Shown here: piece by piece, positions 6,669 through 40,377 of the stretch | How positions within the stretch are numbered: position 1 is the first letter of the stretch | How the letters are laid out: every line of letters starts with the position of its first letter | Assembly: GCF_027925025.1 (NCBI RefSeq) | Contig: NZ_AP027058.1 | Coordinates: forward strand, 1,736,001 to 1,800,000 | Source: Limnohabitans sp. MORI2 | GTDB taxonomy: Bacteria; Pseudomonadota; Gammaproteobacteria; Burkholderiales; Burkholderiaceae_C | Direction: 5' to 3' | DNA length: 64,000 bases | The notes under the pieces: generated by a model | What the model was told of the DNA's origin: nothing | What the model saw: the letters and a program-made list of their open reading frames with translations, nothing else | Database searches by the model: none | Made by a program: the position numbers and the translations under genes

Positions 6669-6742
6669 GCGGGTGTCGTTCAATGGTAGGACTCTTGCTT
6701 CCCAAGCAAATAACGTGGGTTCGATTCCCATCACCCGCTCCA
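6669..6742 (+). tRNA. glyU: tRNA-Gly (anticodon CCC)
   Basis: A 74-base cloverleaf: acceptor GCGGGTG pairs with CACCCGC, the D arm holds TTCAATGGTAG, the anticodon loop TTCCCAA gives anticodon CCC, the T arm carries GGTTCGATTCC, and the CCA end is encoded. It closely resembles E. coli glyU. Its 3-prime end is 26 bases from the first gene of the low-GC sulfosugar island. Confidence 0.96.
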
Positions 6743-6768
6743 ATGAGAAGCTTCGTATAGGATTGCCT

Positions 6769-7548
6769 TCAACTGGCAAACATGTGCATCGCGACAAGCA
6801 GTAAAAAGCCAGCAAATGACTTCTGCAATTTGTCTCGATTTATTACTTGGGACACCCTAGCGCCCCATGCCGCAAAGAAAAGACTACTGGCACTGATGCC
6901 TACAAAGGCTGGCCAATGCACATAGCCCCAAGTATTTGGTAAATTTGGCCCCACAAGGCCCATGCCAACAGCGCCAATCATGGAAATAAAAATCGCCACT
7001 GCTGAACTCACCACCACGGCATCCCTCATATCTGTGCCCCTGGTAACCAAATATGGAACAGTCATTGCGCCACCACTGACACCCAAAAGGGTTGAAATGT
7101 GACCAATCACGACCCCCACGCCAATCAGTTCAGTGGGCTGGGGTGAGACATCTGAAGTTATTCGGACGGGTTGTCGAAGCATTGAAATTGCCATAATGAG
7201 GGCAAAAAATCCAAAGCCTAGTTTGAGCCCTACTGTCGGCAAGCTCGCGACAAGTGACACAGCGAGCACGGCCCCCATACCCACACCAGCTGTGAGCCAC
7301 ACGCCAACACCAGGCCTGATACGTTTTGCACGCCAATGGATCCATGTACTGGTAAGGGAGGTAATGACGATACATGCCAGAGAAGTCGCTACTGCGAAAT
7401 GCATGACATCAGGCCCCAGTAGCGGATCGTCCCTCCAAAGCACATACAAGGTTGGCACGATCACCAAACCACCTCCGACGCCAAAAAGACCAGCTGTGAA
7501 TCCCCCTGCGGCACCTACTAGAAAAAAAATCAATATCAAGCTCATCAT
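6769..7548 (-). CDS. TauE/SafE (TSUP) membrane exporter, probable sulfite exporter of the sulfosugar island
   Basis: A 259-residue integral membrane protein with about eight hydrophobic segments and the TSUP signature repeats AGLFGVGGG near the N-terminus and LLGVSGGAMTVPYL in the second half. Family members export sulfite, sulfoacetate or similar anions. Its ATG at 7548 overlaps the stop of the flavin reductase gene (ATGA), so it is translationally coupled to the desulfonation genes, which release sulfite in the cytoplasm. Export of that sulfite is the natural role, by analogy with sulfo-SMO clusters. The longer open frame to 7587 lies inside the upstream gene and is not favoured. Confidence 0.88.
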   Translation of the reverse strand: MMSLILIFFLVGAAGGFTAGLFGVGGGLVIVPTLYVLWRDDPLLGPDVMHFAVATSLACIVITSLTSTWIHWRAKRIRPGVGVWLTAGVGMGAVLAVSLVASLPTVGLKLGFGFFALIMAISMLRQPVRITSDVSPQPTELIGVGVVIGHISTLLGVSGGAMTVPYLVTRGTDMRDAVVVSSAVAIFISMIGAVGMGLVGPNLPNTWGYVHWPAFVGISASSLFFAAWGARVSQVINRDKLQKSFAGFLLLVAMHMFAS

Positions 7549-8075
7549 GCAGGCAATGGCATGAATTGCCCGAAGGCACTTTGGCAAAAACCTAACACGG
7601 ACTTATCCTGCCATCCAAAATCCGATACGTGACCTATAAGAATCAAGTGGTCGCCAGCTGGAACCAATTCATGCAGCTCGCAATCGAAAAAGGCAACGGC
7701 ATCTGACAGACGTAGACACTGATTTTTTTGACGATTGACCTCTACCCCGATAAAACGTGAGGCCATATCACCCGTTGCAAATTGCCGTGCTAAGCCTTGT
7801 TGATTCGTAGACAAAACACTCACACTGAAACGACCAGAGCGAGTAAAAGCGTCCAAACTAGAGGCCGCTCTACGAATGCTCCATAAAACCAATCGAGGCT
7901 CAAGAGAAACTGATGCAAATGAATTGCAAGTCATTCCCCAGTCTGCCCCCTCCCATCGCGTTGTAACAACCGTCACACCGGTTGCAAAACACGACAACGC
8001 CCTCTTGTAATCAGCTTGGGATTGATCTGGGCGCGGTAAATCAAGAACTGCAAGATCGTCTGTCAAGTGTCTCAT
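7545..8075 (-). CDS. smoA: NAD(P)H:FMN oxidoreductase (flavin reductase), SmoA-like
   Basis: A 176-residue flavin-reductase-like protein (HpaC/RutF type): YKRALSCFATGVTVVTTRW at residues about 23-41, then CNSFASVSLEPRLVLWSI and the FSVSVLSTNQQGLARQFA segment. Such proteins supply free reduced FMN to two-component monooxygenases. Here the partner is the SsuD/SmoC-like monooxygenase two genes upstream. It is third in the order monooxygenase, aldo/keto reductase, flavin reductase, exporter. The symbol follows the Agrobacterium sulfo-SMO pathway and is assigned on context; the fold itself is secure. Confidence 0.85.
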   Translation of the reverse strand: MRHLTDDLAVLDLPRPDQSQADYKRALSCFATGVTVVTTRWEGADWGMTCNSFASVSLEPRLVLWSIRRAASSLDAFTRSGRFSVSVLSTNQQGLARQFATGDMASRFIGVEVNRQKNQCLRLSDAVAFFDCELHELVPAGDHLILIGHVSDFGWQDKSVLGFCQSAFGQFMPLPA

Positions 8076-8107
8076 TGAGTACCTTTATTGAGAGATCATG
8101 AACGGAG

Positions 8108-9019
8108 TTAAGGAACTTCATGGCCGTTGGCCAACTCATACAGCTCAAACCATGTCTGACGATCCATAGACACTTTCAATGCATCAGCAAAATGTCGGAT
8201 CCGATCCACTTGATTGCTGCCCATAATTGGGACAACGCCAACGGGGTGATACATCAACCACGCCATTGCGATGGCCGTGGCATCTACATGATGCGCAAGA
8301 GCAAGCGCAGCCAGTTTTGGAGCCAGTCTTGCAGCTGCAGTCTCAGGTTGGCCGGCTTGGTGATGAAGGCGCCCTCCACCCAGTGGAGACCAAGCCATGA
8401 TGGGCATCCTGTGCTGCTGCGCATGAGCGATTTGGCCATTGGTCAACGCGGATGTACATAAGAGGCTCATTTCAATTTGATTGGTCTGCAATTGATGACG
8501 CATGCACGATTGCAGCAAATCCACATCCCAAGGCATGTAATTGGACACGCCAACGCCGCGAACTTTGCCTGAATCAATCAGCTGATCAAGACAATTCCCC
8601 AAAGCACTCGCATCACACAAGGGATCAGGGCGATGGATGAGGAGCAAATCAATGTTGTCCACACCTATACGCTTTAACGAACGCTCAACACTTTCACGAA
8701 CATGTGCAGCACTTGTGTCGTAATGTTTCACACGTGTTTGCGGCCACTTTCTTGACATCAACATGATGTCTGTCTTAGTAACAATTTCAATTTCATCACG
8801 CAGAGATGGTCTCGCCTTGAGCGCGTCGCCAAACAATTGTTCGCACGCATAGTCACCATAAATATCTGCATGGTCGAATGTCGTGATGCCTTGCGCCAAG
8901 CAGGCATCAATTCGAGCCAAATTAGTCGCCACACTGCAATCTTTAGCCTCAGATAGACGCCATACACCATATGCCATCTGACTGATATGCTGACCGTTAG
9001 GTAATGTGATTCGTTTCAT
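8108..9019 (-). CDS. smoB: Aldo/keto reductase, probable 6-oxo-glucose reductase (SmoB-like)
   Basis: A 303-residue aldo/keto reductase with the complete catalytic tetrad: Asp49 and Tyr54 in TTFDHADIYG, Lys82 in IVTKTD and His129 in LLLIHRPDPL. The NADPH site follows (MAWSPLGGGRL, then IMGSNQVDRIRHFADAL). It is most like the YdhF-type subfamily. In the sulfo-SMO pathway SmoB reduces the 6-oxo-glucose left after desulfonation to glucose, and this gene sits between the monooxygenase and flavin reductase as expected. The ATG at 9019 matches the family N-terminus; the upstream extension is AT-rich leader. The substrate is inferred from context. Confidence 0.85.
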   Translation of the reverse strand: MKRITLPNGQHISQMAYGVWRLSEAKDCSVATNLARIDACLAQGITTFDHADIYGDYACEQLFGDALKARPSLRDEIEIVTKTDIMLMSRKWPQTRVKHYDTSAAHVRESVERSLKRIGVDNIDLLLIHRPDPLCDASALGNCLDQLIDSGKVRGVGVSNYMPWDVDLLQSCMRHQLQTNQIEMSLLCTSALTNGQIAHAQQHRMPIMAWSPLGGGRLHHQAGQPETAAARLAPKLAALALAHHVDATAIAMAWLMYHPVGVVPIMGSNQVDRIRHFADALKVSMDRQTWFELYELANGHEVP

Positions 9020-9068
9020 GATGAATTTAAATTTCCAATTCCAACTAAGACGTTTATTGGAAGGCACC

Positions 9069-10226
9069 CTAGCGACGCGCCCCCACACCTAAGGGCGTCG
9101 CCGGTGTAGTTGAGGGCACACGACCATAGGCTTGAGCCAAAGAGACAGTTTTAAGATGAGGCAAAACCTTGGTTCCAAATTGTTCACACTCATTCAGATG
9201 CGGATAGCCCGAGAAAATAAAGGCACGAATTCCCATCTTCATGTAATCGTGAATTTCAGACAAAACCTGATCGACACTTCCGACTAGTGCAGCACCACAC
9301 CCACTGCGAGCTCGGCCAACACCAGTCCAAAGATGCGGCTCGATATAACCATCTTCGTCGGCGATTTCACGATTCGAACTTTGGAATGCCACGCCTAAGC
9401 TTTTTGCGTCTAGCGCTCGATTTCGAATAGCTTGACCAGCTTGATCATCGAGCTGCGAAACTAACTCTCTGGCGTATTCCCTCGCCTCAGTTTCGGTGTC
9501 ACGAACAATCATGTGTACCCTCAACCCATAGTCCAATACGCGCCCATACTTTTGGGCCTGAGCGTGTACGTCACGCATGCGCTGAGCAAGGGTCTCCTTA
9601 GGCTCTGGCCACATCAAATAGGTGTCGCAATGTGCACCGCACAGCTCTAACGCATCCGGACTGTAGCCACCAAAGTAAAGTAAAGGTCCACCTTGGGTCT
9701 GGTAAGGACGAACTGGATCTGTACTCAAGCCCTTGATTTGATAAATCTGCCCTTCGTAATTGATTTCATCCTGAGTCCAGGCTTGCTTCAAAATTTCGAC
9801 TACTTCCCAGCTACGGCGATAACGATAGGCACTGTCGGCTTGCTCCCCAGGAAAGTCAGAGGAAATCACATTCAAAGTCAGGCGCCCCTCTAGTAAATGA
9901 TCAAGCGTGGCAACCGTTCGAGCAAGCATGGCAGGCTGCAGCTCTCCGCACCGAATAGCTGCCAACATGTTCATTTGCTTGATTTGAGGTGCCATGGCCG
10001 CCACGAAACTCAGGGTGTCCTGTCCCACCTGATAAGACGATGGACACAAAATATTTCGAAAACCTAACTCATCCGCCCTCTTAGCAATGCGACTCGTGTT
10101 CGCCCAGTTGCTTCGGTAATTGCCATCAGGAACACCCAAATATTGAAAGTCATCTGAACAAAGTGGCGCAAACCACGCGATCTCAGCGCCATCAATTGAC
10201 TCACCTTTGACAGGAACAACGCTCAT
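9069..10226 (-). CDS. smoC: FMNH2-dependent sulfonate monooxygenase, probable sulfoquinovose monooxygenase (SmoC-like)
   Basis: A 385-residue luciferase-like (LLM) flavin monooxygenase of the SsuD branch: SsuD-like segments ANTSRIAKRADELGF and LAAIRCGELQPAMLARTVAT, then LEGRLTLNVISSDFPGEQ, and RSWEVVEILKQAW. SsuD enzymes cleave the C-S bond of sulfonates with FMNH2 and O2, releasing an aldehyde and sulfite. The neighbours (flavin reductase, aldo/keto reductase, sulfite exporter, sugar ABC importer, glycosidase) point to sulfoquinovose rather than an alkanesulfonate. The ATG at 10226 has a strong GGAGGGG site. It leads the minus-strand desulfonation operon and is divergent from a GntR regulator. 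An alkanesulfonate role is the alternative. Confidence 0.85.
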   Translation of the reverse strand: MSVVPVKGESIDGAEIAWFAPLCSDDFQYLGVPDGNYRSNWANTSRIAKRADELGFRNILCPSSYQVGQDTLSFVAAMAPQIKQMNMLAAIRCGELQPAMLARTVATLDHLLEGRLTLNVISSDFPGEQADSAYRYRRSWEVVEILKQAWTQDEINYEGQIYQIKGLSTDPVRPYQTQGGPLLYFGGYSPDALELCGAHCDTYLMWPEPKETLAQRMRDVHAQAQKYGRVLDYGLRVHMIVRDTETEAREYARELVSQLDDQAGQAIRNRALDAKSLGVAFQSSNREIADEDGYIEPHLWTGVGRARSGCGAALVGSVDQVLSEIHDYMKMGIRAFIFSGYPHLNECEQFGTKVLPHLKTVSLAQAYGRVPSTTPATPLGVGARR

Positions 10227-10243
10227 AACACCCCTCCAAAAAC

Positions 10244-10271
10244 TATGAATGAATAGTATATGAATTGATAG
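10244..10271. promoter_or_regulatory. Tandem 13-bp near-repeats in the smoC/gntR intergenic region, possible operator
   Basis: TATGAATGAATAG (10244-10256) and TATGAATTGATAG (10259-10271) differ at two positions and start 15 bp apart. They lie 17-45 bases upstream of the smoC-like start, where bound protein would block transcription. A further GACA-TACT-TGTC palindrome (from about 10309) lies immediately before the regulator start codon. The binding protein is unproven; the adjacent GntR regulator is the first candidate. Confidence 0.4.
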
Positions 10272-10323
10272 ACTTTAATTTAAGGGTTTATGCTTAGCAA
10301 CCGTGTTTTGACATACTTGTCTT

Positions 10324-11043
10324 ATGACAACGCCAATTCCAGCTAAACCATTACCGGTCTATTTGCAAATCGCTGAGTTATTAGCACGTCGGATCAAGGC
10401 TGGTCACTGGCGAGAAGATGAACGCTTACCGACTGAGGCAGAACTGTCCACACAATTGAATGTCGCTGTAGGCACATTGCGCAAGTCATTGGCACTGCTC
10501 GCTAAGCAGGGCGTAGTTGAGCGAATTCAAGGATCAGGCACTTACGTCAAAAAAGCGGCAGGCACAGGGCAAATCTATGAGCTCTTTCGCTTGGAACTGA
10601 ATTCAGGACCAGGTTTACCAACCGCATTAATCTTGGATGTCAGCCTTGAACTTCGCCCAGCTGATGTACCCGCTTTTGGGAATGGCAGGAGTACTCACGC
10701 GTGGCGAGTTCGTAGGCTTCGCTCGCTAAGTCACGTGCCAGTTGCATTGGAAGAGATTTGGTTTAACGGAGACCATGTGCAAAATTTGTCAGTGCACACC
10801 TTGGGTGACTCCATGTATCTGTTTTACCAAGAAAATTTTGGCATTTGGATTGCGCGCGTAGAGGATCGTATATCTGTTGACACAGCTCCAATGTGGGCCT
10901 GTCCCCCTTTTGGTATCAGTCCAGGACAGCCGACAGGATTCATTGAGCGTGTGTCACGAACATCAACAAATGAAGTTGCTGAGTTTTCACAAACATGGTT
11001 TGATCCATCTATGTGCTGCTACTCCTCTCGGTTGAGCCAATGA
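10324..11043 (+). CDS. GntR/HutC-family transcriptional regulator
   Basis: A 239-residue regulator. Residues about 10-75 are the GntR winged helix (LPVYLQIAELLARRIKAGHW, then LPTEAELSTQLNVAVGTLRKS, and the wing VERIQGSGTYV). The rest is a UTRA-type ligand domain, the HutC subfamily sensor for small metabolites such as sugars (RVRRLRSLSHVPVALEEIWF). It is divergent from the smoC operon and convergent with glpK six bases away, so it probably controls the sulfosugar genes, with sulfoquinovose, its glycoside or a sugar product as effector. The TTGACA 12 bases before the start is too close to serve as a normal -35. Confidence 0.87.
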   Translation: MTTPIPAKPLPVYLQIAELLARRIKAGHWREDERLPTEAELSTQLNVAVGTLRKSLALLAKQGVVERIQGSGTYVKKAAGTGQIYELFRLELNSGPGLPTALILDVSLELRPADVPAFGNGRSTHAWRVRRLRSLSHVPVALEEIWFNGDHVQNLSVHTLGDSMYLFYQENFGIWIARVEDRISVDTAPMWACPPFGISPGQPTGFIERVSRTSTNEVAEFSQTWFDPSMCCYSSRLSQ

Positions 11044-11049
11044 AACGTT

Positions 11050-12558
11050 TCATTTCAGTTGTGCAACTGCAGACTCCCAACTAGCAAGCCTACTTTGAGC
11101 CTGATCGGAACTCCATTGCGGTTCAAACACGCGCTCAATGCGCATTTGATTGCGCAGCGAGAGAGGGTCCTGAAAAACCTGAATATGCAAGCCCGCCAAT
11201 AAAGCGGCGCCTAACGCTGTGGTTTCCAAGGTTTGAGGGCGCAAGACTGGTATCCCCATCAAATCGGCTTGCATCTGCATGAGTAAATTGTTCGCACAGG
11301 CACCTCCGTCAACTCTCAAAGCCTTGACTTGACAATCCTTCATTCCATGTGCATCACGCTGCATTGCTTGCAAAAGAACAGCACTTTGTAAGGCAATGCT
11401 TTCCAAAGCAGCACGCGCGATATGCGCCACAGTAGTACCCCGTGTCAGACCTTGGATGCTGCCTCTTGCATGCGGTAACCAGTAAGGTGCACCTAACCCT
11501 GTAAATGCAGGGACTAAAACTACACCTTGGGTATCCGGCACGCTGCAGGCCAGTGCTTCAACCTCGCTGCTGTGTTGAATAGCCCTCAGTCCATCACGCA
11601 ACCATTGAACTACAGCCCCCCCCATAAACACACTTCCCTCAAGAGCGTAAGTTAGCCCTGAGTCGGCCCCAAAACTTGTAGCACAAGTCGTGATAAGTCC
11701 ATTGCGACTCGTTAAGGCCTGCTCTCCAGTGTTCATCAGCATGAAACATCCAGTGCCGTAGGTGTTTTTCACATCACCGGGTGAAACACCGGCCTGTCCC
11801 AGAAGCGCAGATTGCTGATCTCCCGCCACCCCTCCAATAACGGGAACATGGCCAGCTCCTAACAAGCCCGGCTGCACGCGACCGAAATCGCCAACCGATG
11901 GCAGAACATGAGGCAAAACTTGGCGAGGAATATCGAACAAAGCTAACAGCTCATCGTCCCATTCACCTGAATGAATATTGAGCAACAAAGTTCTGCTGGC
12001 ATTCGTGATATCAGTTACGTGACTTCTACCCCCTGTCAATTGCCAGATCAGCCATGTATCCACCGTTCCAAACGCCAACTCGCCACGCTGTGCTTTTTCT
12101 CTAGCTCCTGGAACGTTGTTTAGCAACCAGCGCAACTTGGTCGCGGAAAAATAGGGATCTATACGTAAGCCCGTGAGTTCTTGGATGCGTAACTCATGCC
12201 CCTTCGCCTTCAGCTCAAGGCAAAAGCCCTCGGTTCGACGGTCCTGCCAAACAATGGCGTTATAAATTGGTTTCCCTGTATGACGATCCCAAAGCAGAGT
12301 GGTCTCACGCTGATTGGTAATTCCGATTGCAGCAATTTCATTGATAGAAAGTTGACCTTTTTCAAGCACTTGAAGAATGGTTTGAAGCTGACTATTCCAA
12401 AGGTCTTCTGGTCGGTGCTCGACCCAACCAGGCTCAGGGTAAATCTGCTCAAACTCTTGCTGAGCCATGCTGTGCACTACGCCATCCTGGGTAAAAACAA
12501 TGGCACGAGAGCTGGTTGTTCCTTGATCAAGTGCAAGTAAAAAAATAGGCTCGGGCAT
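11050..12558 (-). CDS. glpK: Glycerol kinase
   Basis: Phosphorylates glycerol to sn-glycerol 3-phosphate with ATP. The 502 residues match the FGGY kinase family at full length: phosphate loop LALDQGTTSSRAIVF at the N-terminus, WQDRRTE, the glycerol-site region GTVDTWLIWQLTGG, and the C-terminal ATP segment DGGACANNLLMQMQADLMG. It lies 26 bases downstream of a DeoR-type repressor on the same strand and is divergent from glpD, with no glpF facilitator nearby. In this island it would use glycerol freed from sulfoquinovosyl-glycerol inside the cell, which removes the need for a facilitator. Confidence 0.96.
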   Translation of the reverse strand: MPEPIFLLALDQGTTSSRAIVFTQDGVVHSMAQQEFEQIYPEPGWVEHRPEDLWNSQLQTILQVLEKGQLSINEIAAIGITNQRETTLLWDRHTGKPIYNAIVWQDRRTEGFCLELKAKGHELRIQELTGLRIDPYFSATKLRWLLNNVPGAREKAQRGELAFGTVDTWLIWQLTGGRSHVTDITNASRTLLLNIHSGEWDDELLALFDIPRQVLPHVLPSVGDFGRVQPGLLGAGHVPVIGGVAGDQQSALLGQAGVSPGDVKNTYGTGCFMLMNTGEQALTSRNGLITTCATSFGADSGLTYALEGSVFMGGAVVQWLRDGLRAIQHSSEVEALACSVPDTQGVVLVPAFTGLGAPYWLPHARGSIQGLTRGTTVAHIARAALESIALQSAVLLQAMQRDAHGMKDCQVKALRVDGGACANNLLMQMQADLMGIPVLRPQTLETTALGAALLAGLHIQVFQDPLSLRNQMRIERVFEPQWSSDQAQSRLASWESAVAQLK

Positions 12559-12584
12559 GACAAGGAGTTCCTTCTAAATCAGGT

Positions 12585-13358
12585 TCAATCTGGTGCGATC
12601 ACGCAATTTACATTTTGTTCGTGAAGTAGGCCTTCAAATTCAGGCCCAGGTCTAGCGTCGGTATAAAGCGTATGCACAACATGAATCGGGGCCATTTCGA
12701 TCATTGCCGTGCGCCCAAACTTACTCGCGTCTGCGACTAAGCAAACCTGTCGAGAATTAGCGACGATAGCCCGGGCTACCATGACTTCACGCATATCGAA
12801 ATCACGTAAAGAGCCATCGGCATCAATGCCACTGATGCCAATCAAACCGAAGTCAACCTTAAATTGGCGAATAAACGAAAGTGCCGCTTCACCCACCACG
12901 CCCAAATCTTCAGATCGCACAGCACCACCCGCGACCACTACTTCGCAATTTGGGTTAACAGCCAAGATTTTTGCAACATGCAAGTTATTGGTCACCACAC
13001 GTAAATCACGGTGATGAATTAACTCAGCGGCAACTGCCTCGACTGTGGTGCCGATGTTCATGAATAGGCTCGCGCCAGGAGGGATTGCTGCAGCCACCGA
13101 TCTAGCGATACGTTGTTTAGCTTGCGCGTTGGTGCGCTGACGTTCAACATAGGCGGTGTTTCGCGTGATACTGTCCAGCACGCGAACTCCCCCGTGAAAA
13201 CGTTCCAGCGCACCAGCCTCGCTGAGTCGTTGGATATCACGCCGAACTGTTTGTAACGTAGTTCCCAATTGAACAGCAATCGCTTCGGTTTTCAGCGCGC
13301 CGTGTTCGCGCACCGCTTGCAAGAGTGCCAGCTGCCTAGGATTAAGAGCCCGAGTCAT
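12585..13358 (-). CDS. glpR: DeoR-family repressor, probable glycerol-3-phosphate regulon repressor
   Basis: A 257-residue DeoR-family regulator: N-terminal helix-turn-helix (LNPRQLALLQAVREHG, then TTLQTVRRDIQRLSEAGALERFHGG, the usual DeoR signature) and a C-terminal sugar-phosphate sensor domain (FMNIGTTVEAVAAEL, LRVVTNNLHVA, LIGISGIDADGSL). The GlpR type senses glycerol 3-phosphate. It is encoded immediately ahead of glpK and divergent from glpD, so control of both is likely. The ATG at 13358 is taken because the family begins near NPRQ; an in-frame extension to 13430 would lengthen it by 24 unlikely residues. The effector is inferred. Confidence 0.85.
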   Translation of the reverse strand: MTRALNPRQLALLQAVREHGALKTEAIAVQLGTTLQTVRRDIQRLSEAGALERFHGGVRVLDSITRNTAYVERQRTNAQAKQRIARSVAAAIPPGASLFMNIGTTVEAVAAELIHHRDLRVVTNNLHVAKILAVNPNCEVVVAGGAVRSEDLGVVGEAALSFIRQFKVDFGLIGISGIDADGSLRDFDMREVMVARAIVANSRQVCLVADASKFGRTAMIEMAPIHVVHTLYTDARPGPEFEGLLHEQNVNCVIAPD

Positions 13359-13489
13359 GAGAGCGTTATATCCTTTCAATTCACTCGAATTTCTAGGGAT
13401 TACGAGCATGCTCACCCCCTTCGTTTTCAAGCTATAAACTCACATACGAATCAAAAACAACACAAAAAATTCATCTTTTTTGACTTTTC

Positions 13490-15091
13490 ATGATTAGGCC
13501 TGATCTTAACCAATGGACAGCCTCCCAAAGCTCGCATCACTTCGATGTGGTCGTAGTAGGCGGAGGAGCCACTGGCCTTGGTGTTGCAGTTCAGGCTGCT
13601 TTAGAAGGGCGAAGGATTGCATTGATTGAAGGTCGGGATTTCGCCAGTGGTACATCTTCCCGCTCCACGAAATTGCTTCATGGCGGGGTACGCTATTTGG
13701 CGCAGGGCCAGTTTCGACTTATTCAAGAGGCATTGCGTGAACGCTCGATCATGCTTAAGCTTGCCCCACACTTGGCACAACCGATACCGTTCGTAGTGGC
13801 AGAGCGGAAATGGTCATCTTGGTTAGTTTCAAGTCTTGGACTCAACATTTATCAAATGCTGTCCAGGAATCTCAGTCTCGGACCCACCGCAGGTGTTTCA
13901 TCAAAAGCTCTTCACCAAATTGCACCAACTTTGCCACCAGCGGCAGCTGGCGTACGTTATTGGGACGGTCAATTTGATGATGCCCGCTATGCAATAGCGC
14001 TTGCACAAACCGCCAATGCCGCAGGGGCAATGATTCGCAACCACACGTTGGTCACGAGCTTGCAAAATAACGCAGAGGGTTGGACCCTGGGGCTGAGAGA
14101 CAGCTTCGACGGAACAACCAGCCAAATAAGAACCCGTTGTGTTGTAAATGCAACGGGGGTGTGGGTTGACGATTTGCGGCACCAATTACTAACCTCCCCT
14201 AAAACAAGTGGAGGAGCATCCTCAAGCAAGCATTTATCAGATCGATGGGTACAACCCAGCCAAGGCGTTCATTTGGTGGTCAGTCGCGAGGTATTGCCAT
14301 TGAACGAGGCTGTCTTGGTGCCTCGAACAAGAGATGGACGCGTACTTTTTGCAATTCCTTGGCTGGGATCAATAGTAATTGGCACCACTGACACGCCTCG
14401 AAATGATGCACCGCTGGAACCTCGCCCCTACAGTCATGAATTGAAATTTCTGTTCGAAGAGTCGCATCGACACTTGGGCGTCAAGTTACACATCAGTGAC
14501 ATAAAAAGCGTTTGGGCCGGGTTGCGTCCTTTGGTCAATCGCACATCTGATGAACGCACCACAAGCCAGATCTCTCGTGAGCACTTGATTGTTCGAGAAC
14601 AACCGGGCTTCATCACAGTCACTGGCGGCAAGTGGACCACCTACCGATCAATGGCCGAGTTGGTGATGAAATCCTTGGTCGAGTCAAATGATCTGCCTGC
14701 GTCTTCTGTACATGCGCAGACTCAGAATCACGCACTGAAAGGTGCACCCGCCTTCGCGACTCATCGTCTGAGGGACGCTCCCAGTTTGAATTTGTATGGA
14801 ACAGCTAGCGCGATTATTCAAGACATGACTGGACCCAATGACACCATAGGACTTGGACTCACCGAACACATGGTCAGATACAGTGCCCGAAATGAATGGG
14901 CCGTCACGGTAGAAGACATGCTCGCTCGACGTTGGCGCGCCTTGTTCCTAGATGCTCGAATGGCAAAGGTGATGGCCCCAAAAGTGGCCAGATACCTACA
15001 AGCCGAGACTGGCATCAATCCGCAGTTGCATGATTTCGAAATACTCTGTGACCAATACACTCTTTCCGAGATTTCTCAAGGTCATGATTGA
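13490..15091 (+). CDS. glpD: Aerobic glycerol-3-phosphate dehydrogenase (FAD)
   Basis: Oxidises glycerol 3-phosphate to dihydroxyacetone phosphate and passes electrons to quinone at the inner membrane. The 533 residues begin with the FAD-binding fold (FDVVVVGGGATGLGVAVQAA), the family signature GTSSRSTKLLHGGVRYL, and later WAGLRPLV and TVTGGKWTTYRSMAE, with a C-terminal helical cap. Length fits the family (500-540). Its start region is AT-rich with no clear Shine-Dalgarno, so the exact start is less certain. It is divergent from glpR/glpK and followed 38 bases later by the Gfo/Idh/MocA gene, which links glycerol use to the sulfosugar genes. Confidence 0.94.
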   Translation: MIRPDLNQWTASQSSHHFDVVVVGGGATGLGVAVQAALEGRRIALIEGRDFASGTSSRSTKLLHGGVRYLAQGQFRLIQEALRERSIMLKLAPHLAQPIPFVVAERKWSSWLVSSLGLNIYQMLSRNLSLGPTAGVSSKALHQIAPTLPPAAAGVRYWDGQFDDARYAIALAQTANAAGAMIRNHTLVTSLQNNAEGWTLGLRDSFDGTTSQIRTRCVVNATGVWVDDLRHQLLTSPKTSGGASSSKHLSDRWVQPSQGVHLVVSREVLPLNEAVLVPRTRDGRVLFAIPWLGSIVIGTTDTPRNDAPLEPRPYSHELKFLFEESHRHLGVKLHISDIKSVWAGLRPLVNRTSDERTTSQISREHLIVREQPGFITVTGGKWTTYRSMAELVMKSLVESNDLPASSVHAQTQNHALKGAPAFATHRLRDAPSLNLYGTASAIIQDMTGPNDTIGLGLTEHMVRYSARNEWAVTVEDMLARRWRALFLDARMAKVMAPKVARYLQAETGINPQLHDFEILCDQYTLSEISQGHD

Positions 15092-15129
15092 CTGACTCAG
15101 GAAACAACTTTTGACTTGGAGACAAAGGC

Positions 15130-16278: not shown

Positions 16279-16337
16279 TGCTCGTAAGCCGAAAGTCATC
16301 TCACAGCATGAACGCCCGCTGTAGTCGGTCGAAACAA

Positions 16338-17279
16338 CTAAAGCTCGCGCATGAAGCGGGCCGCTTCTCGCCAATCAGCTCGAGTCATGGCGTGTCCACC
16401 CAGACGTTCAACCCATCTGAGTCGATGTGGATGTTCACTCCAGGCTGTCTGCAAGGACTCCACCAAATGCTTCGCGCCGGTCGGATTTGCCCAAAAATCA
16501 TCTTTGGCTTGCAATACACAGAGCCCCCGTGGTGCCAATTGAGTAAGCCAATTGATAGGGGCATCCTCCGCGATAAGACGTTGCTGAAGTTCGACATCAG
16601 TCGCATCAGGCCCACACCAATGGGGAAAACGAGTGACCAAATCAAACAGAGTCTCACAACCTCGATCATGCACTCGAAGCGATGCAGCACCGCCTGTACC
16701 GCTGTTGTTGGCAACTACAGCATCAAATCGGGCATCCAACAGGGCGGCCAAAAGCGCAGCTTTTCCGCCTCGAGAATGACCCACTGCGCCAAGTTTGCCC
16801 CTAACTTCATTGGCACTTCGACTCAAAACATCGGCACAAATCATCAGTCCCCAAGCCCAAACAGACAAGGCAGACCAACTACCCTCTGGCCAGCGGCTGT
16901 GTACCGGCCCTCGGCGTTGGCAGTCAGGGTTATCGAAGGCCAATTCGGTTCGATTAAACCAAGCCAAAGCAACCCCCTCCTGAATCACCGCATCTATAGC
17001 CTCTGCACTAAGAACGTGAGGCCAGCAGCCATCAGGGCTCAAAAGTATGGGAAAAGAACTTTGACCGGTGGGGTACACACAATACATCGTGAAATTCAAC
17101 CAAGCAGGCTCTCCGACCTGAACCTGCCATTCACGCAGCACCCTACGCGATTGTTGCAACTCGTGCAACAAAACTGCGTTTACAGAATCTTCTCGCCCCG
17201 GCAAAGGACCAAAAAATGCATCAATGCCAAGGCGATCCTGTCCAGCTGTCGAAATAATCTTTTTGCTTTCCTTGCTCAT
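16338..17279 (-). CDS. Cytoplasmic alpha/beta-hydrolase (esterase-like), sulfosugar-island associated
   Basis: A 313-residue serine hydrolase without a signal peptide. The nucleophile elbow is GHSRGGKAAL, followed by LDARFDAVVANNSGTGGA, a pattern seen in CE15-like glucuronoyl esterases and related acetyl-esterases. A late acidic stretch VLQAKDDFWANP and His in ERLGGHAMTR supply the rest of a Ser-Asp-His triad. It is the only minus-strand gene between the Gfo/Idh/MocA and binding-protein genes, and divergent from the ABC importer across 67 bases. It could remove acyl or other ester groups from an imported sulfosugar glycoside, or open a sugar lactone. No specific substrate is supported. Confidence 0.82.
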   Translation of the reverse strand: MSKESKKIISTAGQDRLGIDAFFGPLPGREDSVNAVLLHELQQSRRVLREWQVQVGEPAWLNFTMYCVYPTGQSSFPILLSPDGCWPHVLSAEAIDAVIQEGVALAWFNRTELAFDNPDCQRRGPVHSRWPEGSWSALSVWAWGLMICADVLSRSANEVRGKLGAVGHSRGGKAALLAALLDARFDAVVANNSGTGGAASLRVHDRGCETLFDLVTRFPHWCGPDATDVELQQRLIAEDAPINWLTQLAPRGLCVLQAKDDFWANPTGAKHLVESLQTAWSEHPHRLRWVERLGGHAMTRADWREAARFMREL

Positions 17280-17346
17280 TCAAACAAACCATAAGAGCGT
17301 TTCAACGCCAGTCGCTTTATTATCAAACCATTCACAGGAGACACTC

Positions 17347-18618
17347 ATGAAAAATATTCGAATCAATCAATTGGCCTTGGCACTTGGCCTTGCAACGCTG
17401 TGCAGTTTCGCCCAAGCTGGCGATGTTCGCGTCATGTGCTATCAAGATGGCATCGAATGCGATGTCACTGCGGAATTAGCAAAGCGTTTTGAGTCCCAAA
17501 ATCCTGGGACAAAAATCATCATTGACACCGTCCCCTATAAAACGATTGTTGAGCAATTGCCCGTTCAGCTTGCGGCAGGCCAAGGACCCGATATTGCCCG
17601 AGTTACTGATCTCGGCGGCTTATCAAAGTTTTACTTAGATATTTCTAAAGACATCAAAAACCGCAAGAGCCTCGATCAAAACTTCAGCGCCACAGCGCCT
17701 TGGTTAGCGCCCACCGCAGGAGACAAGGGCGTTTATGGGTTCATGTCGCAGCTGACCATGACTGGGCCGTTTGTCAATAAAACTTTGTTTGATCAAGCCA
17801 AAGTCGCATTACCAGGGCCTAAAGCCACATGGGATGAGTGGGTAGAAGCATCGCGCAAAGTAGCCAAGACCACCGAAACCAAAGCCGCAATGGCTTGGGA
17901 TAGGTCAGGCCACCGTTTTGCAGGGCCAGCCATCAGTTATGGCGCCAAAATTTTTGATGCTAGCGGCAATCCCGTGATTGATGCTGGCTACAAAAATGCT
18001 GTGAACAAATTTGTAGGTTGGCACAAAGACGGCACGATGATGCGTGAAGTATGGGCTGGCTCTGGCGGCTCTACTTATGCCTCATCCATCGATGAATTTA
18101 TCAACGGTAATGTCGTCATGGTCCTAGCAGGAAGCTGGCAAATTGGCAATCTTCAAAAGAAAGTCGGTAACAAATTCGACTGGGTTGCAGTCCCTAACCC
18201 TTGCGGCTCAACTGCTTGCTCTGGCATACCAGGTGGCGCTGCATGGGTGGCACTGAAAACCAGCAAATCTCCAAAAGAAACCGCCGCTTTCCTTGAATTC
18301 ATGGCGTCAGAGTCAGCTTATGCTGAATTTACAGCGCGGACCAATAACATTCCAGCGCATGCAGGTCTCGCAAAGAAAGGGGTCAATTACGCTTCAGCTG
18401 ATCCTGCATCAAAGGCGGCACTGGGAGTGTTCAGCGCTGGCGTCGCAAACCTGTCTCCTGTTGCTTATCAATTCCAAGGATACAAATTCAACCGAGCCAT
18501 CATGTTGCCAACTGTGACTCGTGTCACCCAAGCTATTGTGGGCGAGATGAATTCCGACGAAGCCATCAACAAGATCGTGGCGGACATGCAAGACGCCGTC
18601 AAGCAAGCGCAGAAATAA
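17347..18618 (+). CDS. ABC transporter sugar-binding protein (candidate SmoF-like, sulfoquinovosyl-glycerol)
   Basis: A 423-residue periplasmic binding protein (extracellular solute-binding family 1, MalE-like) with signal peptide MKNIRINQLALALGLATLCS, cleavage near FAQA. The start at 17347 has a GGAG site. Characteristic parts: KRFESQNPGTKIIIDTVPYK, AGQGPDIARV, DRSGHRFAGPAISYGAKIF, and VLAGSWQIGNL. Two close cysteine pairs (CYQDGIEC near the mature N-terminus and CGSTAC) may form disulfides. It heads a four-gene importer plus glycosidase operon. In sulfo-SMO clusters the equivalent protein, SmoF, binds sulfoquinovosyl-glycerol; the same ligand is inferred here. Confidence 0.9.
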   Translation: MKNIRINQLALALGLATLCSFAQAGDVRVMCYQDGIECDVTAELAKRFESQNPGTKIIIDTVPYKTIVEQLPVQLAAGQGPDIARVTDLGGLSKFYLDISKDIKNRKSLDQNFSATAPWLAPTAGDKGVYGFMSQLTMTGPFVNKTLFDQAKVALPGPKATWDEWVEASRKVAKTTETKAAMAWDRSGHRFAGPAISYGAKIFDASGNPVIDAGYKNAVNKFVGWHKDGTMMREVWAGSGGSTYASSIDEFINGNVVMVLAGSWQIGNLQKKVGNKFDWVAVPNPCGSTACSGIPGGAAWVALKTSKSPKETAAFLEFMASESAYAEFTARTNNIPAHAGLAKKGVNYASADPASKAALGVFSAGVANLSPVAYQFQGYKFNRAIMLPTVTRVTQAIVGEMNSDEAINKIVADMQDAVKQAQK

Positions 18619-18650
18619 AGATCTAAAACATTTCATTTAGTCAGCCAAGC

Positions 18651-18680
18651 GGGCAGAAGCTATTCGCTTCTGCCCCTTTT
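18651..18680 (+). terminator. Intercistronic hairpin between binding-protein and permease genes
   Basis: A perfect 10-bp stem (18651-18660 with 18666-18675), loop TATTC, followed by CTTTT. Such hairpins after binding-protein genes usually stabilise the upstream mRNA or end most transcripts, so the binding protein is made in excess over the membrane parts. Confidence 0.7.
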
Positions 18681-18696
18681 GGTAAGCCATATTTTT

Positions 18697-19674
18697 ATGA
18701 AATTACTGGGTTTACTCCTAAACTTGCTAGAACCCATCTTTGCCATGGGCCAGCGTTTACTTGGCATCCATCGCTTAGGATGGTTTTTCGTCGCCCCAAA
18801 TTTATTGGTATTCGGTATTTTTTGTTTCTTACCAATCCTAATTAACCTGATTTACGCCACGACTGGCGGCGTCAATTTAATCCCGACTCAACGTCCGTTT
18901 ACTGGTCTTGAAAACTTTCAAATTCTTTTTGAATGCCGAGACTACTTGGATGTTTCATCTTGTCGCAAAGACGTGTTTTGGCGAGCCATCTTCAACACTT
19001 TAAAGTTTAGTTTTTTTCAAGTTGGACTGATGGTTTTGTTCGCCCTCATCACTGCCTTAGTTCTGAACAAAAAGATCCTAGGCCGAGGCTTCTGGCGGGG
19101 TGTTTTCTTTTATCCAGTCTTGTTATCACCCGTCGTGGTCGCGCTCATTTGGAAATGGTTGTTACAAAGCCAAGGAGCCTTCAATGCTGGGTTGGTTGCA
19201 CTTGACCTTGCACCCGTTGAATGGCTGACCCAAGCCAAGCCAGCTTTCTTTTGGGCCATCTTCATTTCCATTTGGGCACATATGGGTTTTTACACGCTCA
19301 TTCTGCTTGCAGGGTTACAAGCAATTCCCAAAGACCTCTACGAAGCTGCACAAATGGACCGTGCTAGCCCATGGCGTACTCTCAGAAAGATCACACTCCC
19401 CTTGCTGATGCCTAATTTAATTGTGGTCTTAGTACTTGCCGCCATTCGCGCAATTCAAATCTTCGATGAGGTATTCGTACTCACAGGGGGTGGGCCTGGC
19501 TCAGCCACCACATTTATCGTGCAGTTCATTTACCAAACTGGCTTTGCAGAACAGATTCACTTGTACGGGCTTGCAGCGGCGGCATCCTTGGCTTTGGCAG
19601 CTTTTCTAATTGTGCTCACACTCGCGCAACTTCGCCTAACTCGTGCCCAAGAATTGGGCCCCAAGGGTAAATGA
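18697..19674 (+). CDS. Sugar ABC transporter permease (MalF-like)
   Basis: A 325-residue inner-membrane permease with about six membrane segments. The cytoplasmic EAA loop, which docks the ATPase, is YEAAQMDRASPWRTLRKITLPLLMP near residues 230-255. Family: carbohydrate permease of the MalF/UgpA type. The ATG at 18697 follows the hairpin that separates it from the binding-protein gene; an in-frame TTG at 18679 lies in that hairpin's T-rich tail and is rejected. The stop is one base from the next permease start. It likely corresponds to SmoG or SmoH of the Agrobacterium cluster; the letters cannot be told apart here. Confidence 0.9.
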   Translation: MKLLGLLLNLLEPIFAMGQRLLGIHRLGWFFVAPNLLVFGIFCFLPILINLIYATTGGVNLIPTQRPFTGLENFQILFECRDYLDVSSCRKDVFWRAIFNTLKFSFFQVGLMVLFALITALVLNKKILGRGFWRGVFFYPVLLSPVVVALIWKWLLQSQGAFNAGLVALDLAPVEWLTQAKPAFFWAIFISIWAHMGFYTLILLAGLQAIPKDLYEAAQMDRASPWRTLRKITLPLLMPNLIVVLVLAAIRAIQIFDEVFVLTGGGPGSATTFIVQFIYQTGFAEQIHLYGLAAAASLALAAFLIVLTLAQLRLTRAQELGPKGK

Positions 19675-19675
19675 C

Positions 19676-20725
19676 ATGAAAATCTTAGAATTTTTACTTC
19701 GCACCCGAGGTCGCCGTAAGCTGCATTGGACCGACACTCTGAGCTATGCCTATTTACTCTTGGGGTTGGTCACAATGTTTGCCCCTGTTTTATGGCTTGT
19801 TTTATCGTCATTTAAATCTGAGGCTGCTATAGCCCAGTTCCCCCCAACCCTGCTGCCTTATGCTCAGAAGACTGTGGAAGTGAGTGGGTACAACCATCCG
19901 TTGCCCTTGTTCAACGTGAACCTAGACGATGGCACAAGCAAAACTCTGGCCCAAGCGAGCCGCATGGGTATATCAGCCATGATGGTAGATCCCGACTCGC
20001 CTGAACAACGTATTCAGGTAAACATCAAACAACGACAGCCTGTCAACGAAATCAAGTGGGCCTGGAACAATTACACCGACTTGTTTAGGAAGTTCGCTTT
20101 TGGAACTTACCTGTGGAATAGCGTTTTCATCACCTTGGTTGCAACGCTGTTAACACTCCTGTTTAATTCAATGGCTGCTTTTGCTCTCTCAAAATATCGC
20201 TTCACTGGTCAAAAGGTTGTGTTTCTATTAATCATTGCCACCCTGATGATCCCACCCACCATCATCTTGGTACCAGTATTTTTAGTGATCAATCAAATCG
20301 GATTACTTAACTCACTGTGGGGCGTGATTTTGCCCGCTGTAGCAACACCCACTGGCGTATTTCTGCTTCGCCAATACATGCTCACAATTCCGGACGAACT
20401 CATCGAGGCAGCGCGTATGGATCACGCCAGTGAATGGCGCATTTATTGGCGGATTATTCTTCCCCTTTCTGCGCCTGCACTTGCCGTGCTGGCAATTTTT
20501 TCAGTGATGTGGCGATGGAATGACTTCTTGCTGCCACTGATCGTGCTCTCGCAAAACGAACATTTCACTCTACAACTCGCGTTGAATTCATTTCAAGGTG
20601 AACTCAATACGCAGTGGCACTATTTACTTGCGATGACGGTGATCACTTTGTTACCTGTCACTTTGGTCTTTGCTTTCTTGCAACGACACATCACAACTGG
20701 TATCGCCAGTGCAGGTGTTAAATAA
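19676..20725 (+). CDS. Sugar ABC transporter permease (MalG-like)
   Basis: A 349-residue inner-membrane permease. After the first membrane segment (residues about 25-45) there is an unusually long periplasmic stretch of roughly 90 residues (about 47-135) before the five-helix core, then the EAA loop ELIEAARMDHASEWRIYWRIILPL. That layout fits the MalG/CUT1 class. The ATG at 19676 starts one base after the stop of the preceding permease, so translation is coupled. The pair forms the channel of the importer. Confidence 0.9.
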   Translation: MKILEFLLRTRGRRKLHWTDTLSYAYLLLGLVTMFAPVLWLVLSSFKSEAAIAQFPPTLLPYAQKTVEVSGYNHPLPLFNVNLDDGTSKTLAQASRMGISAMMVDPDSPEQRIQVNIKQRQPVNEIKWAWNNYTDLFRKFAFGTYLWNSVFITLVATLLTLLFNSMAAFALSKYRFTGQKVVFLLIIATLMIPPTIILVPVFLVINQIGLLNSLWGVILPAVATPTGVFLLRQYMLTIPDELIEAARMDHASEWRIYWRIILPLSAPALAVLAIFSVMWRWNDFLLPLIVLSQNEHFTLQLALNSFQGELNTQWHYLLAMTVITLLPVTLVFAFLQRHITTGIASAGVK

Positions 20726-20748
20726 CTTTTTCATACTAGGTATTTCAC

Positions 20749-21789
20749 GTGTCTACTCTTGAACTTCACGCCATACGCAAAACCTTTGATCAGACACCCG
20801 TCATTCATGGTGTCGACCTGCATGTTGAACATGGAGAATTCATAGTTTTTGTCGGGCCTTCGGGTTGCGGGAAATCCACACTCCTGCGACTCATTGCAGG
20901 TCTAGATGAACCAACTGATGGGCTATTGCGTATCGATGGCGAACAGGTCAATCATCTTGGTGCCGCTGATCGTGGTTGTGCGATGGTCTTTCAGTCCTAT
21001 GCGCTTTACCCTCATATGACGGTTTATGCCAACATGGCATTTGGCCTTGAAAATGCGAAAGTCCCCAACAAAGAAATTGAGCAAAAAGTCCAAGAAGCGG
21101 CAGTCATGTTGCGCCTTGAACACTTGCTTGATCGACGCCCCACACAACTTTCTGGCGGCCAGCGTCAGCGGGTTGCGATTGGTCGGGCTATCGTCAGAAA
21201 TCCAAAGATTTTTTTGTTTGACGAGCCTTTGTCAAATTTAGATGCTGAACTACGGGTATCCATGCGTTCAGAGCTTCGCGAACTTCACCGTCGGTTAGGT
21301 GTGACGATGATCTATGTGACACATGATCAAGTCGAAGCAATGACTATGGCGGATCGAATCGTTGTTTTACGTGCCGGACGCGTGGAACAAGTCGGAACGC
21401 CAGAGTCCCTCTACCAAAAACCGTGCAATGTATTTGTAGCTGGATTTATTGGTAGCCCTCGGATGAATTTATTCAGTTATCGGGTGACATCAGGTTGTCC
21501 ATCATTAAGCGCTTTGCTGCCAGCAGGCATACACCAAGTTGGCGTTCGCCCAGAGCATTGGATTCCCGCAGACGCATCTGATGGGCTAGCGATGACAGTC
21601 TTGTCTTCAGAATACCTTGGCGCTCAACGACTAGTTGTCGCTGAACTTGAAGACAAAACACGTGTGGAGCTACTAGTAGATGCGGGTCTGCAGATGCCTA
21701 TCAGGGAGCTTGTACACCTCAAAGCTCACCCCGATCACATACATGCTTTTGACGATCAAGGGCAACGCATTAATTCGGAGACGAAATGA
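20749..21789 (+). CDS. Sugar ABC transporter ATP-binding protein (MalK/UgpC-like)
   Basis: A 346-residue ATPase starting at GTG 20749. Walker A is GPSGCGKST, the signature is [10 protein letters not shown], Walker B is [11 protein letters not shown] and the switch is [12 protein letters not shown]. Residues beyond about 235 are an MOI/TOBE-type regulatory domain as in MalK. It powers the import complex encoded just upstream. Its stop overlaps the start of the GH31 gene (ATGA), tying sugar uptake to glycoside hydrolysis. It probably corresponds to SmoE. Confidence 0.93.
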
Positions 21790-23948
21790 CCCCCGTTCAA
21801 TCAGAGGCATGGCAAGTCCATCCTGGCAATTCGCAAAGTGATGCTCATGCGAAATTAGCGGGTGGCGATCGATTGGATATGGTGTTTCTGTCAGACACAA
21901 TGGCGCGGGTTTACTGGCATCCTTCGAGCGGTTTTCGTGAACCACGCACATGGGCCATCGCGCCCACACACGACCATCGGGTTCAAGATGTTCCGTGGGA
22001 GGGCCGCTCACGATCGAGCCTCGAAGGTTTTGAAAGACCAAGCATCATCCACACTTCAGAACACACGATCAGCACTAGACGACTCAAAGCGAGTTTTGAA
22101 GGAGGAAACGGATTGCCAGTTCGTGTCATTTGGCGAGATGCACAATCAGACCAAGTGATCTTGCAAGACCGTGTGACCTCAGCCTACTTGCATGAAAAAA
22201 GAACGGGGCTTGTTCGCCACAGTGTCGTGCGAGACCCCAACGAATACTTCTTCGGCCTAGGTGACAAAACTGGCCCGCTCAATTTGCATGGCAGGCGATT
22301 GCGTTGCATGGGTCAGGATGCCATCGGATACGACGCTCACTCAGGTGATCCACTCTATAAACACTGGCCGTTTGTCATCACTCGAACTATTGATGGTTTG
22401 TGGACAGGCATTTACTACGATACGTTGTCTGCCTGCACATTTGACCTAGGTTGTGAACATGACAATTACCACGGACTGTTTCGCAGCGTTGACATCGACG
22501 ACGGAGACTTGGATTACTACTTCATGCTGGGAACAACCCCAGCAGAGGTGGTGGCTCAGTTTGTTCAATTGATCGGAGGCAGCCACTTACCCCCCCGATG
22601 GACCTTGGGTTTCGCACAAACAGCAATGGGCTTGGCTGACGCGCCGGATGCTCAAGATCAACTGGATGCATTCATCGACGAATGTCAACGCCACAAAGTT
22701 CCTATCTCTGCTTTTCACTATGGTTCTGGCTATTCGAGTAGGGGAAAACAGCGTTATGTTTTTACTTGGAATCGCTCTAAGTTTCCTGACCCCAAACGGC
22801 TGAATGAAAAGTTTCGTGGCGCCAACCTTAAACTGGTGGCCAATTTGAAACCCTGCCTCTTAGATGACCATCCAGCCTACTCGAAATTGGCAAAAGAGCA
22901 TGCTTTTATCGAGCATGAAAACACGCACCAACCTGTGGTTGAACCCTACTGGGATGGGCAAGGGTCACACCTCGATTTCACTCGACCAAACGCAGTTAAG
23001 TGGTGGCAAGAACAACTAAGAAGCCAAATTTTGGATTACGGCATTCAAGTAGGTTGGAACGATAACAACGAATACGCCATTGCAGCTGAAGATGCGTTCA
23101 GTGCAGGCTGGGGGAAAGCTATCCCGATGCACCGAAGTCGCCCTTTGCATGCATTGCTGATGACGAGAGCGAGCTTCGAGGCGCAACGTGAAGACCTCAT
23201 TGCCAATCCAGACCGTGACCATCTTTTTACTGTGACACGTGCAGGCCCTCCGGGTATCCAGCGCTATGCTCAAACTTGGTCGGGGGATAACACCACTAGC
23301 TGGAAAACGCTCAAATGGAATATCCGAACAGGCTTGCAAATGAGCCTATCTGGCATGTTCAACGTGGGGCACGATGTAGGCGGTTTTTTTGGCCCCGTGC
23401 CTGATCCCGAGCTGTTTCTTCGCTGGGTTCAAGCCTGTGCGCTGAATCCTCGCATGGTAATGAACTCTTGGAAAGAAGGAAACGTCAGCAATCTGCCTTG
23501 GATGCATCCAGAGGTGACTGATGCAATTCGCAGCACCATTGAGTTGCGATATCGACTCATGCCTTATCTCTGGGCTTGCTTTGAAGCAGCTTGCTCCACT
23601 CATCAACCTATCATTCGGCCAACATTTTTTGATTTTCCAGACGATCAAAATTGCTTGAATGACTGCGATGAATTCATGTTAGGCGAGGCCCTTTTAGTAG
23701 CCCCGGTAGTGGGGCCTGGCGCAAACACCCGAAAACTCTATCTACCCAAACTTCCAGATGGACAGCGGTGGTTCAATTTCCACACGCGAGAAGCATACCC
23801 AAGTGGTTCAATAGCTGAACTAGATGCCCCAATGTCCCTTCTTCCGCTTCTTGTACGAGAGGGCAAGTCCATTGAGGTGTCAGCTCCAAAACCAGGGGCC
23901 GTGGCACACCACGATGACCCCGTAGTAGAGGTTTTACGCTTCAACTGA
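21786..23948 (+). CDS. GH31 family alpha-glycosidase (not obviously the classical sulfoquinovosidase subgroup)
   Basis: A 720-residue GH31 enzyme with no signal peptide, so cytoplasmic. The N-terminal beta-sandwich is followed by the (beta/alpha)8 barrel; the nucleophile is Asp426 in GWNDNNEY and the acid/base Asp501 in [10 protein letters not shown], with the downstream [10 protein letters not shown] motif. The WNDNNE surroundings fit GH31 alpha-glucosidase subgroups. From memory, YihQ/SmoI sulfoquinovosidases have a different nucleophile context and sulfonate-binding Arg/Trp residues that I cannot place here. It is last in the importer operon (ATGA overlap). It may cleave sulfoquinovosyl-glycerol, or a co-imported alpha-glucoside such as glucosylglycerol. 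Confidence 0.9.
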
Positions 23949-24629: not shown

Positions 24630-24641
24630 GATGGTGTGTCC

Positions 24642-40372: not shown

Positions 40373-40377
40373 TGACG

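Follow-up and report, generated by a model that had tools for sequence, protein, structure and literature searches.

Does the gene island at positions 6769–23948 of the window (the whole stretch of 64,000 nucleotides analysed, bases 1736001–1800000 of the sole contig, NZ_AP027058.1, of the 2.65 Mb genome of Limnohabitans sp. MORI2) constitute one complete system for the use of sulfoquinovosyl-glycerol (SQGro), as a preliminary description of the locus held, or have separate parts been joined? The island holds 15 genes and is flanked by tRNA-Gly on the left and pcaJ/pcaI on the right. By Pfam and NCBIfam all gene families named in that description are present, and a GntR/UTRA regulator gene (10324–11043) and a CE15-like gene (16338–17279) have to be added to its list. 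From the sequence, the island is probably a horizontally acquired composite for SQGro use, in which genes of the sulfoquinovose monooxygenase (SMO) pathway, sulfo-SMO, described in PMC9594981, form a module with a GH188 gene that is combined with a glycoside cassette. The claim of a complete sulfo-SMO island thus stands for the sulfo-SMO half, but not for the whole block as one set. The sulfo-SMO half with its regulatory region consists of:

6769–7587, minus strand, TauE/SafE-type exporter, putative sulfite exporter (PF01925, 151 bits)
7545–8075, minus strand, flavin reductase, SmoA-like by position (PF01613, 129 bits)
8108–9088, minus strand, aldo/keto reductase, SmoB-like (PDB 7bbz/7bby, 344 bits)
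9069–10226, minus strand, FMNH2-dependent sulfoquinovose monooxygenase, SmoC-like (72% and 71% identity to 7olf and 7oh2)
10248–10267, plus strand, putative operator-like direct repeat AATGAATAGTATATGAATTG in the smo–gntR gap
10324–11043, plus strand, GntR/UTRA regulator, SmoD-like by position (PF00392, PF07702), divergent to SMO in relatives

The monooxygenase gene was found in a single copy in the genome, and its product scores 640 bits to 7olf and 633 bits to 7oh2, which carry the PDB labels methanesulfonate sulfonatase and alkanesulfonate monooxygenase and which we take to be SmoC, while other alkanesulfonate monooxygenases reach at most 203 bits. An SsuD or MsuD identity was rejected on this difference, as the preliminary description had expected. 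In the phylogeny that it proposed, the protein groups with the SMO sequences, but the two SsuD-type sequences could not be placed because their end branches carry 6 and 10 changes per column. The aldo/keto reductase is closest to 7bbz/7bby, presumably SmoB, with the next PDB chains at 207–214 bits (YdhF and putative reductases); its start probably lies nearer 9019, with homology opening at residue 24. The flavin reductase and sulfite-export genes of the cluster are assigned by family only. The former adjoins the aldo/keto reductase gene in several relatives, and counterparts of the latter, about 62% identical, are found in the smo clusters of genomes G061 and G405 and of locus L003. A glucokinase-family gene (342 bits) is present in the genome. 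The SmoB-like and SmoC-like proteins are encoded together, which is how sulfo-SMO is recognized in the available text of PMC13372026, and the predicted assignment of this half of the island is solid.

The following two genes are located further to the right:

15130–16278, plus strand, GH188 NAD-dependent sulfoquinovosidase (SQase), SqgA-like, a Gfo/Idh/MocA protein (8zn9, 491 bits; 8qc3, 366 bits)
16338–17279, minus strand, CE15-like alpha/beta hydrolase (PF22244, 72 bits; CE15-type PDB chains at most 84 bits)

The GH188 score of 366 bits is to 8qc3/8qc2, the SqgA structures of PMC10755693. The eight active-site residues named for ArSqgA in the accessible parts of that paper, Lys107, Tyr136, Arg166, Leu170, Lys172, Glu189, His193 and His321, are identical in the window protein, so that the sulfonate-binding Arg166, Leu170 and Lys172 are kept together with the catalytic residues, and kinship to SqgA is confirmed. 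A Glu163 is also given there; at position 163, as anchored here, ArSqgA has Val and the window protein Arg, but both have Glu at the position after it, which was taken as the residue meant. Among the loci compared, all 91 GH188 matches of at least 300 residues and at least 50% identity agree in the eight residues and in this Glu, nine letters in all, and all 18 matches below 50% identity differ solely by Tyr for Leu170, a variant found in PMC11465081; both counts include the same gene from overlapping loci. Of the two glycoside-cleaving enzymes proposed beforehand for SQGro, the GH188 protein is hence a credible SQase by its sequence, whereas the other, of family GH31, does not show the sulfonate signature found in YihQ and SmoI, as detailed below. 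A second GH188 group, 40–42% identical and with Tyr for Leu170, was observed in 18 family genomes (L153–L170), all of them absent from the list of SMO matches, and an ATP-binding cassette (ABC) permease match lies nearby in 13 of the 18 loci.

The CE15-like hydrolase might conceivably act on acylated headgroups. Names among the 120 listed of its 352 relatives include hypothetical protein, dienelactone hydrolase, glucuronyl-esterase-domain protein and carboxylesterase. In the window, L243, L250, L171 and L003 the gene has no obvious leader and is divergent to a binding-protein gene, and it is found beside that gene in both smo-linked and smo-free loci. A plus-strand open reading frame (ORF) opposite to it (16275–17294) has no Pfam or NCBIfam match and was rejected as probably spurious.

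The glycerol genes and the importer–GH31 unit are:

11050–12558, minus strand, glycerol kinase GlpK (TIGR01311, 687 bits, cut-off 590 passed)
12585–13430, minus strand, DeoR/GlpR-type regulator (PRK10906, 261 bits, below the cut-off of 331)
13490–15091, plus strand, GlpD-type glycerol-3-phosphate dehydrogenase (PRK12266, 299 bits, below the cut-off of 360)
17347–18618, plus strand, ABC sugar-binding protein, not SmoF-like (PF13416/PF01547); the ORF opens at 17224, with 17347 as the likely start
18679–19674, plus strand, ABC permease 1 (PF00528)
19643–20725, plus strand, ABC permease 2 (PF00528)
20749–21789, plus strand, ABC ATPase of UgpC type (PRK11650, 451 bits, cut-off 432 passed)
21786–23948, plus strand, GH31 alpha-glycosidase (PF01055, 265 bits), its start overlapping the ATPase stop

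The GH31 protein keeps both catalytic Asp residues. The sulfonate signature of GH31 SQases, which we take to be Gln262, Gln288, Arg301, Trp304 and Tyr508 in YihQ, reads Q/Q/R/W/Y in YihQ and K/E/R/W/Y in SmoI of the rhizobial locus L076. At the position of Tyr508 the island protein has Phe, while Gln262, Gln288 and Trp304 are unmatched in the 15 orthologues aligned and Arg301 is ambiguous by one column. It scores only 83 bits to YihQ, against 225 to maltase-glucoamylase and 215 to 6jr6 (dextranase), and a classical SQase of YihQ/SmoI type was rejected on signature and score; a fold search did not separate SQase from alpha-glucosidase. The substrate is probably another, non-sulfonated glycosyl-glycerol. 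Elsewhere the neighbours of GH31 are mixed, with aldose epimerase and SMP-30-type genes in some places and DHDPS-, TctC- and RraA-type genes in others, and two orthologues (G100:C288 and G214:C32) have one internal stop each, being either broken copies or sequencing errors.

The binding protein aligns with the SmoF reference of L076 over 206 residues only, at 22.8% identity and E 0.025, and this reference itself scores 699 bits to the SmoF structure 7nbz. The model of the island protein is weak (12 sequences, mean predicted local distance difference test score 65), and a fold search with it returned sugar-binding chains and maltose-binding-protein fusion chains with similar Z; no SmoF chain is among the 50 matches listed, which does not speak against one. 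The binding-protein tree does not separate smo-linked from smo-free betaproteobacterial loci. A ten-pair hairpin was observed at 18651–18675, between the binding-protein gene and permease 1; such hairpins are common where binding protein is made in excess.

That the right half can exist on its own is seen in relatives. For this comparison 61 genomes of the genus and 399 of the family were drawn from larger groups. Family genome G082 (L239) has glpK-glpR|glpD, binding protein, two permeases, ATPase and GH31 in the order and on the strands of the window, with glpR 79% and GH31 69% identical, and in G190 glpR and glpK are found beside importer and GH31; neither G082 (99% complete) nor G190 (87% complete) appears among the SMO or the GH188 matches. 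Together with the unlikeness of the binding protein to SmoF and the missing sulfonate signature of GH31, this speaks against treating the block as a single sulfo-SMO system. In G061 GH188, the CE15-like gene, importer, GH31, the SMO operon and TauE lie together, with no glp gene within the 39 kb read. In the GlpK tree the window sequence clusters with those of G082 and L003 (100/100), a second clade unites G003 with G028 (100/100), and G190 groups with G050, near G011; from these clades it is suggested that glpK joined the importer–GH31 unit more than once. Both importer kinds were observed in one region of G003 (L096 and L097), where the island-type importer accompanies glpR-glpK-GH188-GH31 and a SmoF-type importer lies beyond gntR. 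The gene-order search proposed beforehand found these genes together in further genomes as well, for which reason chance gathering of the island genes is not an issue. The island appears to have arisen by fusion of two units, a sulfo-SMO/GH188 module and an independent glycoside cassette.

Foreign origin is indicated by composition and by the insertion site. The GC content is 49.5% in the island, 56.8% in the left flank and 55.2% in the right flank, and the flanking genes are:

6669–6742, plus strand, tRNA-Gly (CCC), left flank
23988–25343, minus strand, pcaJ/pcaI-type CoA transferase subunits, right flank

Thirty pcaI loci were compared, 29 from the best-scoring relatives within the genus plus that of the window, with 1.5 kb flanks of which several were shortened by contig ends. 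In seven of the 29 relatives tRNA-Gly (CCC) is close to pcaJ with no island between them, the other 22 being uninformative either way. The distance from the tRNA to the pcaJ end is 63–77 bp in L104–L107, about 80 bp in L117 (from locus coordinates) and 547 bp in L110 and L118, but 17.3 kb in the window. The empty-site genomes G041, G059, G033, G052, G030 and G047 have no glpK match, and GlpD-model matches in them are short or none; in G042 the site is empty, yet SMO, glpK and glpD are found elsewhere in the genome. Because of the empty site and the GC step, we infer that the island is foreign-looking and was acquired horizontally, into the window lineage. Rfam found the tRNA as sole match, and promoter and terminator scans gave nothing beyond shuffled controls. 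A second low-GC stretch (48.1%) was observed at 40001–42000, with a 641-residue ORF at 40378–42303 on the minus strand.

The two halves can be read as one route. SQGro, the headgroup, with its glycerol, of the sulfolipid of plants and algae, would be taken up by the ABC importer and split by the GH188 enzyme into sulfoquinovose (SQ) and glycerol. From SQ, the monooxygenase and its flavin reductase would release sulfite, leaving 6-dehydroglucose, which the SmoB-like reductase would reduce to glucose, to be phosphorylated by the host glucokinase. Sulfite would leave through TauE, and GlpK and GlpD would channel glycerol into glycolysis. In line with the use of the glycerol half that was claimed beforehand, the island glpK is the only glpK, and the island glpD the only full-length glpD, detected in the genome. 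In addition there is no match to the MIP (aquaporin) family in the genome by a search that was positive in 8 of 14 control genomes, and the single genes without a MIP match fit glycerol released inside the cell. Near smo genes glycerol genes are rare: among 80 of at least 502 smo-encoding stretches, read with flanks of up to 10 kb per side and several shorter, glpK and glpD occur in one of 10 betaproteobacterial loci, namely L003 of a pond Comamonadaceae metagenome-assembled genome, and in none of the 70 others, which fits the statement in the preliminary description that Agrobacterium sulfo-SMO clusters are not known to have a dedicated glpRKD set.

Control of the two halves may also differ. 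Allowing up to 3 mismatches, the repeat AATGAATAGTATATGAATTG has no second match in the 64 kb window, and a repeat AATGAATrGTAtATGAATTg is common to 10 of the 12 smo–gntR gaps read, from which a matrix was made with L006 and L008 excluded. Gaps before a SmoF-type importer or GH188 score 20.6 in G011, 18.7 and 14.9 in G405, 14.2 in G003 and 11.8 in G042, and gaps before an importer of the island kind 10.7 in G061 and L016. As background, 3,000 stretches of 86 bp were drawn at random from the window, a sample from one genome with the true site included and with some tested gaps longer than 86 bp; their 99th percentile lies at 7.1, and 0.2% of them score 10.7 or more. The window gaps score -1.6 before the importer, -2.8 between glpD and GH188, -6.0 between GH188 and the CE15-like gene and 9.0 between glpR and glpD, and other importer gaps -1.8 in L003, -10.3 in G082, -7.2 at the separate importer of G011 and 4.3 in G190; the glpK–GH188 gap of G003 gives -7.9, and ahead of the binding-protein gene the score is 5.4 for G003 and 9.8 for G028. 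Since the importer gap of the window clearly has no repeat site, unlike gaps before importers in six other smo-bearing genomes, import and the SQase gene would answer to another regulator here, perhaps the DeoR/GlpR protein, which suggests that their control has been rewired. The values of 9.0 (window) and 9.8 (G028) lie above the 99th percentile and make such a conclusion less clear-cut, and a search for a GlpR operator common to the window and G082 gave shared stretches of at most 10 bases.

Several observations weigh against a composite for SQGro use. No sulfolipase was recognized among the island genes, so that sulfoquinovosyl diacylglycerol itself would need other enzymes, and the binding protein has no match to 7nbz at E 0.001. 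The GlpR-like and GlpD-like proteins fall under curated cut-offs although these are the best family for each; the GlpD cut-off is passed in none of the 61 genus genomes and in one of the 14 control genomes. No integrase was found by the Pfam scan of the island genes, and the only repeat of at least 9 bases common to both borders is the 9-bp CTTCAACTG at 6767 and 23939, which may be of chance origin. Two further points concern GH31: orthologues with 60% identity or more, two of which are partial, are found in 11 of 13 family genomes with SMO and in 10 of 386 without, and in G183 (L241, 5690–12273) the orthologue lies between genes of a tripartite ATP-independent periplasmic (TRAP) transporter (DctP, DctQ and DctM) and a TauE-type exporter, surroundings in keeping with a substrate that is sulfonated or acidic. 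No island-type importer was observed within the 18 kb contig of G183. In the SMO-positive genomes G011, G089 and G124 GH31 is on another contig than smo.

These GH31 observations are at the same time what favours a single dedicated SQGro system, together with the weak smo–gntR repeat (10.7) before the importer–GH31 operon in G061 and L016. The GH31 protein would then be an SQase from a new branch of GH31, with another mode of sulfonate binding, GH188 and GH31 would be redundant or differ in aglycone, and importer–GH31–glp sets without SMO would take the glycerol half only. With the sulfonate signature absent and the cassette present alone in G082 we regard such a system as rather unlikely. It is improbable that the glp genes are chance neighbours at a cargo-collecting site, serving glycerol from elsewhere with no functional coupling: among the genus genomes, with SMO full-length in seven and as a fragment in one (G035), glpK is off the smo contig in four of the seven (G011, G023, G042 and G051) and on it in G000, G003 and G028, and 23 of the 53 SMO-negative genomes also have a glpK match, but all eight SMO-positive ones do (Fisher p 0.005, uncorrected for kinship), glpD ends only 38 nt ahead of GH188 in the window and adjoins it in L003, and glpK of the different clade adjoins GH188 in G003 and G028.

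The composite shares features with several known systems. SMO, the SmoB-like reductase, flavin reductase and divergent GntR gene are common to the Agrobacterium sulfo-SMO cluster (smoA–smoI), for which L076 was used as stand-in, but L076 has a SmoF-type binding protein and a classical GH31 SQase that the island lacks, whereas GH188, glpKRD, the CE15-like gene and TauE are extra in the island. In the GH188 (SqgA) sulfo-SMO clusters of PMC10755693 the GH188 gene is likewise located in the SMO cluster, with the eight residues alike; the non-classical GH31 and the joined glycerol genes are extra in the island. The available text of that paper places GH188 in sulfo-SMO and other clusters without a GH31 SQase, which the island does not contradict because its GH31 is not of the classical kind. 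A glycerol kinase is found in an SQ cluster also in Eubacterium rectale, where the accessible part of PMC11968277 proposes it for glycerol from SQGro, so that the idea of built-in glycerol salvage has been put forward before; the cluster belongs to another pathway (sulfo-SFT) and another phylum, has the GH31 SQase SftG, and the kinase alone is named in that part, with no mention there of glpR or glpD. The G082 cassette corresponds to the right half of the island but has no SMO, GH188 or CE15-like gene.

The combination was called unusual for a betaproteobacterium in the preliminary description. This has to be tempered, as sulfo-SMO (sulfo-ASMO) is tabulated for alpha- and betaproteobacteria in PMC12890257 and a kinase is present in E. 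rectale, but no sulfo-SMO cluster with glpK, glpR and glpD, and no description of an importer–GH31–glp cassette, was met in the mainly open-access literature as far as its text was available. Nothing was found there linking Limnohabitans to SQ or to glycerol kinase, or on galactosylglycerol with glycerol kinase and an ABC transporter in bacteria, and glucosylglycerol gave no lead. The enzymes are each of a known kind; the way of joining them is unusual.

The pool of SQ is put at about 10 billion tons a year in PMC10755693, and the available text of PMC13372026 reports a Comamonadaceae sequence variant 13C-labelled on SQ at the MF station. The island is a candidate route by which both halves of SQGro would be used by a freshwater bacterium with a small genome of 2.65 Mb. 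The substrate of the importer–GH31–glp cassette is directly testable, and its GH31 group could be mistaken for SQase in surveys. A more far-reaching possibility, which taken as a whole is tentative and somewhat doubtful, is that the right half represents an unrecognized glycosyl-glycerol uptake system of freshwater Comamonadaceae, in which a single importer would serve several glycerol-linked headgroups, GH31 would act on neutral glucosyl- or galactosyl-glycerol and GH188 on the sulfonated headgroup, and import would be controlled by the GlpR-type protein and not by a sulfosugar regulator. If so, glycerol 3-phosphate would signal the arrival of phototroph membrane debris, and the island would be a kit for scavenging thylakoid headgroups.

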